64,000 nucleotides of DNA, taken from Brevundimonas viscosa. GTDB lineage: Bacteria > Pseudomonadota > Alphaproteobacteria > Caulobacterales > Caulobacteraceae. The stretch covers positions 62,001 to 126,000 of the forward strand of contig NZ_FOZV01000006.1 of NCBI RefSeq assembly GCF_900116065.1. Reading direction: 5' to 3'. The position numbers and the translations under genes were made by a program. Below the pieces are notes generated by a model, which made no database searches, had not been told where the DNA came from, and saw only the letters and a list, made by a program, of their open reading frames with translations. Shown in pieces: positions 24,341 through 26,860 of this stretch. The number at the start of each line of letters is the position of its first letter. The stretch's first letter is position 1.

Positions 24341-25210
24341 ATGACCGACGCACACCGCCTGCCTGTCGAAGCCTGGGGCCGCCGCCTCCTGACCGACGCC
24401 CAGGCGTGGGCCGACCGCTCGCGCTGGCGCGGCCATGCCTTCGAGTTTCTGTGGTTCGGGCTGAAGCAGGGGTGGGCCTGCCTGTTCGGCGGGGCCATGC
24501 TGGCGCTGATCGTGGCCACCTTCCTGTGGTGGCCGGAAGGAGCGCCGGTCTCGCGCTACGATTTCCTGGTGGTCGGAGCGGTGGCGATCCAGGCGGCGAT
24601 GCTGGCCTTCCGGCTGGAGAGTTGGGAAGAGGCGCGGGTCATCTTCCTGTTCCACCTCGCCGGGACGGTGATGGAGCTGTTCAAGACCCACCACGGCTCG
24701 TGGGTCTATCCGGAGGACAGCATCCTGCGCATCGGGGCGGTGCCGCTGTTCTCGGGCTTCATGTATGCGGCGGTCGGCAGCTACATCGCCCGGGTGCAGC
24801 GCATCTTCCACATCCGGGTGACGCGCTATCCGCCCCTGTGGACGACATGGCTGCTGGCGGTGGCGGTCTATGTCAACTTCTTCGCCCACCACTGGCTGCC
24901 GGACGTGCGGCTGGCGCTGTTCGCGGCGACGGCGCTGCTGTTCGGGCGCGGGTGGTTCCACTTCACGGCGGACCGAAGGCGGCGGTCCATGCCGCTGCTG
25001 CTCGGCTACCTCCTCGTCGCCCTGTTCATCTGGATCGCCGAGAATCTGGCGACCTTCGGCCGGGCCTGGGCCTATCCGGGCCAGGCGGACGGCTGGGAGA
25101 TGGTGGGGTTCGAGAAGCTGGGCAGCTGGTTCCTTCTGATGATCGTCTCGGTCGTGCTGGTGTCGCTGGTGCACCGGCCCGAAGAGGAGGTTCTAGGGCC
25201 TAGGGACTAG
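24341..25210 (+). CDS. DUF817 integral membrane protein
   Basis: This 289-residue protein has about seven to eight hydrophobic segments and matches the DUF817 family. Family landmarks are FEFLWFGLKQGWACLFGG, GTVMELFKTHHGSW, PLFSGFMYAAVGSY and the C-terminal LGSWFLLMI. The function of DUF817 is unknown; conserved Glu, Lys, His and Trp residues in the central part suggest a transport or enzymatic site in the membrane. The stop codon lies inside the left arm of the CTAG palindrome. Confidence 0.85.
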   Translation: MTDAHRLPVEAWGRRLLTDAQAWADRSRWRGHAFEFLWFGLKQGWACLFGGAMLALIVATFLWWPEGAPVSRYDFLVVGAVAIQAAMLAFRLESWEEARVIFLFHLAGTVMELFKTHHGSWVYPEDSILRIGAVPLFSGFMYAAVGSYIARVQRIFHIRVTRYPPLWTTWLLAVAVYVNFFAHHWLPDVRLALFAATALLFGRGWFHFTADRRRRSMPLLLGYLLVALFIWIAENLATFGRAWAYPGQADGWEMVGFEKLGSWFLLMIVSVVLVSLVHRPEEEVLGPRD

Positions 25211-25276
25211 GTGCTAGGGGAGGGAGAGCCAGCGTCGCCGTTCTTCCCTAGCACCTAGTCCCTAGAACCTAGAACC
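25189..25276. repeat. CTAG-rich palindrome built of 7-bp repeats
   Basis: Arms at 25189-25219 and 25246-25276 are 31-bp inverted repeats with two mismatches around a 26-nt loop. CTAG occurs at 25193, 25200, 25207 and 25214 and again at 25248, 25255, 25262 and 25269, which is exactly one per 7 bp in each arm. The left arm holds the DUF817 stop codon. The right arm ends directly at the next gene's ATG. Confidence 0.85.
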
Positions 25277-26860
25277 ATGTCCATGACCGACGTCGTCATC
25301 CTCGGAGCCGGCCACAACGGCCTTGTCTGCGCCTTCTACCTGGCGAAGGCCGGGCTGAAGGTGACCGTGCTGGAGCGGCGGCACGTGGTCGGCGGGGCGG
25401 CGGTGACCGAGGAGTTCCATCCGGGCTTCCGCAACTCCACCGCCAGCTACACGGTCAGCCTGCTCAATCCGAAGGTGATCGCCGACATGGAGCTGGCCCG
25501 GCACGGGCTGACCGTGGTCGAGCGCAAGGTCTCGAACTTCCTCCCGCTGCCGGACGGCCGGCATCTGCTGGCCGGGGAGGGGCGGACCCAGGCGGAGGTG
25601 GCGAAATTCTCGGCGCGGGACGCGGAGCGGCTGCCGGAATACGAGCGCCGGCTGGAGGTCGTGGCGGCGATCCTGCGCGACTGGATCCTGAAGGCGCCGC
25701 CCAATGTGGTCGAGGGCGGCTGGATGGCCATGCTGCCGGAGCTGCTCAAGGCCGGATCGCTGGGCCGGCGGGCGGCGGGGCTGGACGTCGAGGGGCGGCG
25801 CGACCTGCTGGACCTGTTCGCCAAGTCGGCCGGCGACTGGCTGGACGGCTGGTTCGAGAGCGATCCGATCAAGGCGCTGTTCGGCTTCGACAGCGTGGTC
25901 GGCAACTACGCCAGCCCCTACACGCCGGGCTCGGCCTATGTGCTGCTGCACCACGTGTTCGGCGAGGTGAACGGCCGCAAGGGCGTCTGGGGCCACGCCC
26001 TCGGCGGCATGGGGGCGATCACCCAGGCCATGGCCAAGGCCTGCGCCGAGGCCGGGGTCGATGTGCGGCTTGAGGCGCCCGTCGCCGAGGTGCTGACGGA
26101 GAAGGGCCGGGCGGTCGGGGCCGTGACCGAGGCCGGCGACGTGGTGCGAGCGCGGGCGGTGGTCTCGAGCCTGCATCCGCGGCTGCTGTTCGAGCGGCTG
26201 GTGGACGACGCTGTGGTCCCGGCCGACTTCCGCGAGCGGATCGGGAACTATCAGTCAGGGTCGGGGACGTTCCGGATGAACGTCGCCCTGGCAGAGCTGC
26301 CGAACTTCACCGCCTTGCCGGGACAGGGTGACCATCTGACAGCCGGGATCATCGTTGCGCCGAGCCTCGCCTACATGGACCGCGCGCACGCCTCGGCGCG
26401 GCTGAAGGGATGGTCAGACGAGCCGATCGTGGAGATGCTGATCCCCTCGACGCTGGATGACAGCCTGGCGCCGCCGGGACAGCATGTGGCCAGCCTGTTC
26501 TGCCAGCATGTCGATCCCACCATGGGCGACGAGCACCGCGAGACGGTGGCGGACCTGATGATCGAGACGGTCGACGCCCATGCGCCGGGGTTCAAGGCCT
26601 CGGTGGTCGGTCGGCTGGCGCTGGGGCCGCGCGATCTGGAGCGGCGCTTCGGCCTGGTCGGGGGCGACATCTTCCATGGCCGGCTGACGCTGGATCAGCT
26701 GTTCAGCGCCCGGCCGGTGCTGGGCCACGCCGACCATCGCATGCCGGTTCCAGGGCTGTACCTGTGCGGTTCGGGCGCGCATCCGGGCGGGGGCGTGACG
26801 GGCGCCCCGGGCCACAATGCGGCGCGGGCGGTGCTGAAGGATCTGGGCTCGCGCCGCTAG
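25277..26860 (+). CDS. PYROXD2-like FAD-dependent oxidoreductase (phytoene desaturase family)
   Basis: This 527-residue protein starts with the FAD-binding Rossmann motif VVILGAGHNGL (GxGxxG) and ends with the family signature LCGSGAHPGGGVTGAPGHNAA. Both are typical of phytoene dehydrogenase-like and PYROXD2 proteins. No carotenoid or other pathway genes are adjacent, so the substrate is unknown. Two candidate ATGs (25277 and 25283) lie directly after the CTAG palindrome, and neither has a usual Shine-Dalgarno. Its stop overlaps the convergent response regulator gene by 4 bp. Confidence 0.85.
   Translation: MSMTDVVILGAGHNGLVCAFYLAKAGLKVTVLERRHVVGGAAVTEEFHPGFRNSTASYTVSLLNPKVIADMELARHGLTVVERKVSNFLPLPDGRHLLAGEGRTQAEVAKFSARDAERLPEYERRLEVVAAILRDWILKAPPNVVEGGWMAMLPELLKAGSLGRRAAGLDVEGRRDLLDLFAKSAGDWLDGWFESDPIKALFGFDSVVGNYASPYTPGSAYVLLHHVFGEVNGRKGVWGHALGGMGAITQAMAKACAEAGVDVRLEAPVAEVLTEKGRAVGAVTEAGDVVRARAVVSSLHPRLLFERLVDDAVVPADFRERIGNYQSGSGTFRMNVALAELPNFTALPGQGDHLTAGIIVAPSLAYMDRAHASARLKGWSDEPIVEMLIPSTLDDSLAPPGQHVASLFCQHVDPTMGDEHRETVADLMIETVDAHAPGFKASVVGRLALGPRDLERRFGLVGGDIFHGRLTLDQLFSARPVLGHADHRMPVPGLYLCGSGAHPGGGVTGAPGHNAARAVLKDLGSRR

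Follow-up and report, generated by a model that had tools for sequence, protein, structure and literature searches.

A palindrome of CTAG heptamers at a gene end in Brevundimonas viscosa and its resemblance to convergent heptamer arrays that enclose S23 genes

The hairpin and its neighbouring genes

The window, by which we mean the whole stretch of 64,000 nucleotides that was analysed, comes from the Brevundimonas viscosa genome (G000 where genomes are compared) and carries a long inverted repeat between a DUF817 gene and a flavin amine-oxidase/PYROXD2-like gene (Table 1). Four CTAG tetramers occur in each arm (at 25193, 25200, 25207 and 25214, and at 25248, 25255, 25262 and 25269). The first-pass annotation had recorded these eight tetramers and their exact 7-bp steps correctly, but the inverted repeat that it put at 31 bp has arms of 34 nt each, which are 91% complementary and enclose a 20-nt loop. 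CTAG, which had been described as rare in many proteobacterial genomes, is indeed scarce locally: the 64 kb contain 23 copies where 68 are expected from dinucleotide shuffles, an approximately threefold depletion, and the hairpin accounts for eight of the 23. It was also correctly noted that the upstream stop codon lies within the left arm and that the right arm extends to the next start, stopping one base short of the ATG at 25277, with no Shine-Dalgarno sequence for the PYROXD2-like gene. By frame arithmetic, the TAGs at 25194, 25201 and 25208 place stops in all three reading frames. For a possible G-quadruplex on the G-rich strand, units that contain AGGTT offer only two consecutive Gs.

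Table 1. Features of the DUF817-PYROXD2 junction in the window
Feature	Position	Strand	Remarks
Upstream gene, DUF817 (PF05675)	24341..25210	+	Conserved up to ...VHRPEEE; the array encodes the final VLGPRD
GGAGGTT ahead of the left-arm heptamers	25186-25192		
Left G-rich arm: CTAGGGC, CTAGGGA, CTAGGTG, CTAGGGG	25189..25222	+	G-rich-first polarity, as in 76/81 adjacent pairs
TAG stop of the DUF817 gene, from the third heptamer	25208..25210	+	
20-nt loop without an ORF	25223..25242	.	Alignable with the loop of the counterpart in G006, the nearest relative
Right C-rich arm: minus-strand heptamers of the left-arm family	25243..25276	+	Abuts the ATG of the downstream gene
Downstream gene, flavin amine-oxidase/PYROXD2-like	25277..26860	+	Start directly after the right arm

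The RNA fold predicted for the hairpin reaches -73.9 kcal/mol, as compared with -39.5 +/- 3.8 for shuffled sequences (z = -9.1). An intrinsic terminator is ruled out by the missing T-tract, which is found neither past this stem nor at any of 152 element ends across the family described below. Known RNA families returned just sub-threshold matches, to models of microRNA hairpins, which any long perfect hairpin would be expected to give. An assembly artefact is likewise ruled out, since a diverged copy exists in the nearest relative, G006.

The same junction in related genomes

The DUF817-PYROXD2 junction was compared among 30 relatives, where retained. A CTAGG array occupies it in G000, G006 and G018, an array of a different, CTAGTGG-type dialect occupies it in G014, and in G010 the junction consists of 38 bp only. 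In G012, G030 and G032 (L279, L283, L284) it contains unrelated inverted repeats, of the CATCCTCCGGC...CCCCCGGTC type and the CATCCTCGGGCTTGACCCGAGGATC type. The impression is of a site at which several REP-like families have landed. The G006 copy aligns with that of the window, loop included, yet is much less paired (-44.9 vs -69.0 kcal/mol).

A structured RNA that controls translation of the PYROXD2-like gene had been among the initial proposals, and the strong fold and Shine-Dalgarno position of the hairpin are what one might expect of a local regulatory hairpin or protein-binding array. We nevertheless consider local control of this gene very improbable: the hairpin is not conserved at the junction, the copy in the nearest relative has decayed and lost much of its pairing, and like elements adjoin unrelated genes, mostly at stops rather than starts. 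The variety of junction states and the weakened pairing in G006 therefore argue against a conserved regulatory role.

A family of convergent heptamer arrays

The genome of origin, which is complete at 3.0 Mb and was read in stretches around elements, contains CTAG heptamers at 11 places, a count whose reversed-CTAG control reads GATC and is unfair because GATC is common; with the unit written as AGGKNNN, 21 convergent heptamer pairs are found. These copies lie in intergenic spacers at gene ends, as do many in related genomes, and the earlier suggestion of a dispersed element, together with the genome-wide count and intergenic placement proposed as its check, is borne out. Far from being absent elsewhere in the genus, CTAG-kind arrays are present in seven of 37 genus genomes and in none of 24 other genomes of the order, the more inclusive AGGK kind in 22 of the 61 genomes, and the AGTRRNN kind in 23 of the 37 and none of the 24, all three surveys having controls as limited as that for the own-genome counts. 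CTAG heptamer arrays of at least four units also occur in Bacteroidota, Cyanobacteria, Acidobacteria, Patescibacteria, Shewanella, Vibrio and others (L016-L133).

In 73 stretches from six genomes, 76 adjacent pairs of arrays are convergent with the G-rich arm first, as compared with five in other orientations. The family unit is NNAGGKN, and CTAGGNN is its commonest spelling (295 of 770 units). CTAG itself is rejected as the defining feature, as the same architecture is shared by arrays of AGGGATT, AGGGATG, AGTGGCG, AGGCAGT and GGGTGTG units. Loops range from 4 to 430 bp and are mostly shorter than 75 bp; no shared loop motif was found in them beyond a weak GGGAAG at inner arm ends, which is mildly enriched next to the last heptamer on its loop side (19 of 152 arm ends in 76 elements, vs 4 in shuffles). 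One array in G025 has a period of 6 bp, with GCTAGG as its repeat, and is located next to units of 7 bp (L250 2025-2066).

The two arms of an element resemble each other more than they resemble other arms: unit sharing is 0.285 between partners vs 0.130 +/- 0.018 for shuffled partners, and true partners pair more strongly (-56.2 vs -48.4 kcal/mol). Mirror order of the units scores 6.45, compared with 5.95 in shuffles (maximum 6.30) and 6.11 for reversed order. This effect is small, and the arms therefore have vocabulary in common more than order.

Being intergenic, palindromic and present in many copies, these elements call to mind REP/REPIN sequences mobilised by a RAYT transposase. Y1_Tnp (PF01797) has no match in the complete own genome, which rules out RAYT/REP there, and among the 37 genus genomes a single one gives a match; moreover, the arms are arrays of 7-bp units with no fixed core of 20-40 bp, and we find the REP/REPIN explanation scarcely credible.

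Attachment to stop codons

To assign gene boundaries around the elements, we used a purpose-built gene caller that had learned from confirmed window genes, and the following counts are approximate. The flanking gene pairs are co-directional in 44 cases, convergent in 23 and divergent in seven, and 82 of the 92 gene 3' ends that face an element are located within -40 to +10 nt of it. Among these 82 stops, 48 are TAG in one heptamer phase and are thus supplied by the array, and 32 gene ends are located in the first heptamer unit. Three CTAG units suffice to stop all frames because 7 = 1 mod 3, and they do so on both strands because CTAG is palindromic.

S23 genes within convergent arrays

A search for empty sites led to an S23/IVP four-helix-bundle gene in the 430-bp loop of the element at G000:C6:28168-28659, and the 192-bp loop at G000:C7:592978-593226 holds a truncated S23 gene. 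The S23 family (PF05635, TIGR02436) is weakly similar to the Avd protein of diversity-generating retroelements and has relatives of solved structure (2gsc from Xanthomonas, and 2rld); to our knowledge no catalytic motif has been recognised in it. Values of dN/dS of about 0.06-0.2, at high dS, indicate that S23 is under purifying selection.

Throughout the genus, PF05635 genes are bracketed by convergent arrays, in dialects that include GAGTGGC, AGGCAGT, GGGTGTG, GGTGATT, AGGTTCG and CTAGGGG. Arrays are present on both flanks of 27 of 30 genus S23 loci. The period-7 signal in the flanks of these 30 loci is 0.80, as compared with 0.45-0.53 for periods 4-6 and 8-11 and 0.46 for shuffles, and the two arrays match each other at 6.2 of 7 positions when inverted and 3.2 of 7 when direct. 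At 30 S23 loci outside the genus, period 7 alone stands out again (0.752 vs 0.46-0.53), these loci coming from genomes that were chosen for CTAG arrays, although most of the arrays beside S23 there have other dialects. When the 30 genus loci and the 30 from other phyla are taken together, flank windows score 0.773 vs 0.490 for displaced windows at those same loci (p = 8e-39). The clearest arrays outside the genus belong to Calothrix, Moorena, Geomonas, Thiobacillus, an acidobacterium, Chryseobacterium and Xanthomonas pisi, whose S23 gene sits between GGGATTC/GGGAATC-type arrays; arrays are weak or absent in Shewanella, Sediminibacterium, Subsaximicrobium and Aequorivita, among others.

S23 genes were found in 25 of 30 tested genomes that had been chosen for CTAG heptamer arrays of at least four units. 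The association can also be seen at the level of whole genomes. Array loads of at least five matches occur in 18 of 24 S23-bearing genomes vs six of 37 others (p = 8e-6; p = 0.04 for the genus only), and the dialect of a genome's hairpins tracks that of its S23 loci (counts 8,1/1,5; p = 0.011), all three tests ignoring kinship. PF05635 has no match in G032 (100% complete) or G027 (99%), though both contain many arrays. The two intact S23 genes of the own genome lie in AGGGATG and GGTGGCT arrays, and its only S23 in the CTAGG dialect is the truncated one. Intact S23 genes in CTAGG arrays are found in G010 and G018, so that the S23 genes of these two genomes and the truncated copy of G000 are flanked by arrays of the same dialect as the window hairpin.

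Gain, decay and change of dialect

The whole 495-bp element that contains the S23 gene at G000:C6:28168-28659 is missing from the relatives G006 and G028, with no hairpin in its place. No target-site duplication is evident at empty sites, where the insert apparently takes the place of a few bases. Loss of S23 can be followed at one junction, that of the truncated gene, where most relatives are empty (~10-35 bp). There, the S23 gene is intact in G010 and broken in G018, and G000 retains only the first 47 residues (PF05635 1-47) followed by the right array; all non-empty states lie in CTAGG/CCAGG arrays. This series from empty to intact, broken and truncated states comes from that junction only. 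In G018, two S23 copies 1.7 kb apart are 80% identical over ~430 bp that span both the gene and its arrays.

It might be argued that the hairpins came first and spread by another route, S23 being a guest that inserted into their loops. The majority of hairpins do lack S23, and G032 and G027 have many hairpins and no S23 gene at all. We regard a guest role for S23 as unlikely, given that all but three of the genus S23 genes have both arrays, that the gene and its arrays are missing as one from the relatives of G000, and that truncated and broken copies indicate loss from full elements.

At shared S23 sites, both arrays switch dialect together between species (AGGCAGT/AGGCAAC, GGTGATT/GGTGGCT and GAGTGGC/AGTGATT), and similarity of the S23 genes correlates with similarity of dialect even across sites (Spearman 0.26 in the genus, equalled in 0 of 500 label permutations). 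In about eleven species, an S23 element is found between agmatine deiminase-like and N-carbamoylputrescine amidase-like genes (L317-L320, L322, L325, L328, L329, L333, L340, L341), and its heptamer dialect varies by species.

A purely mutational origin would have slippage grow heptamers beside TAG or TGA stops and fold-back template switching make and repair the inverted arm, with no part for S23 and no function. Heptamers are over-represented among bacterial repeats (PMC4692102, PMC4679880), the arms are imperfect and fast-changing, and the order of their units is barely mirrored (6.45 vs 5.95), all of which would fit. Such an origin leaves unexplained the S23 genes between arrays in distant phyla, the presence or absence of a whole 495-bp element, and the copies at two sites whose homology covers both S23 and arrays, and it too seems improbable to us, a shade more so than the arrival of S23 as a guest.

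A proposed history of the elements

On balance, we think it probable that the window palindrome belongs, as a copy without an ORF, to a dispersed family of small elements with two convergent arrays, whose complete form holds an S23 gene and most of whose copies, after spreading at gene 3' ends, lost S23. The hairpin itself is best read as being related to, or decayed from, an S23-heptamer element, with no ORF of its own, and the comparisons suggest that a widespread, largely unrecognised genetic element is present here in stripped-down form. The elements may spread by inserting at gene 3' ends with the aid of the S23 protein, perhaps together with a host enzyme, and S23 would promote their spread, the rewriting of their arrays, or both. 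Insertion would be tolerated because the 7-bp period gives TAG (or TGA) in every frame, such that an interrupted gene should terminate within ~20 nt. Most copies would then delete S23 and persist as hairpins like that of the window. In a DUF817-PYROXD2 transcript, the ~34-bp stem would be a plausible RNase III substrate, and by analogy with the intervening sequences (IVSs) of rRNA we would expect RNase III to cut it where transcribed; the effect of the window element on its host genes is probably slight.

A broader proposal can be made, although we lean somewhat against it as a whole. S23/IVP genes across phyla may supply the protein-coding portion of a single class of mobile elements that end in convergent heptamer arrays. 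An Avd-like S23 protein would direct insertion at gene ends and the copying or rewriting of heptamers; a single dialect would thereby be maintained in the paired arrays and in the ORF-less copies of the same genome. On this view, non-autonomous copies would account for the heptamer repeats in Xanthomonas, cyanobacteria and other bacteria, and the IVSs would have arisen by insertion into 23S rRNA.

The role of the very common S23/IVP four-helix-bundle proteins and the scatter of convergent heptamer repeats at gene ends in many bacterial genomes are two old puzzles that may be one. If S23 acts on the arrays, the elements would form a very small class of mobile element, of ~450 bp with one 120-residue protein and no recognised catalytic site, and an unusual mechanism in which both ends are rewritten jointly. 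They would also provide a natural case of an insertion that brings its own stop codons for every frame.

Comparison with known systems

REP/REPIN elements are numerous ORF-less intergenic palindromes whose protein-coding partner is encoded elsewhere in the genome. The heptamer family differs in having neither a RAYT nor a fixed core, and its candidate partner, S23, lies within the element. The TAACTGA heptamers of marine Beggiatoaceae are dispersed and intergenic and contain stops in all three frames (MacGregor 2015, PMC4679880). They are direct, nearly never inverted, and mostly lie ahead of starts, with no S23 link reported, whereas the arrays of the window are convergent.

In Coxiella burnetii, the 23S rRNA IVS is ~430 nt long and carries an S23 ORF between terminal inverted repeats that form a 28-bp stem; it contains (GACAGAT) heptamers in strain-variable number, and IVSs of this S23 type are excised from the RNA by RNase III (PMC4990558). 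The rRNA IVSs lie in helix 45 of 23S rRNA and the Brevundimonas elements at the ends of protein genes. The window copy has a 20-nt loop and no S23 ORF, whereas other members of its family carry PF05635 between inverted ends, as an IVS does; removal by RNase III is compatible with the ~34-bp stem of the predicted fold.

The closest parallels are the GGGAATC and GGGGA(C/T)T heptamers of Xanthomonas and Nostoc, which are G-rich, intergenic and located no more than 50 bp from sense stops or antisense starts; Xanthomonas genomes contain 70-75 convergent pairs each, no association with mobile elements was found, S23 was not mentioned, and the function was left open (Rehm et al. 2015, PMC4692102). 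Like these, the window hairpin consists of tandem G-rich 7-bp units in an intergenic convergent pair that adjoins a sense-strand stop or antisense-strand start. Both are G-rich arrays at gene ends, and they differ in the unit, which is NNAGGKN in the family of the window, mostly as CTAGGNN. A general link between S23 and heptamer arrays was not found in the literature searched, which leaves out most subscription journals. The feature in the window thus varies an established type of repeat, and its link with S23 is new and testable.
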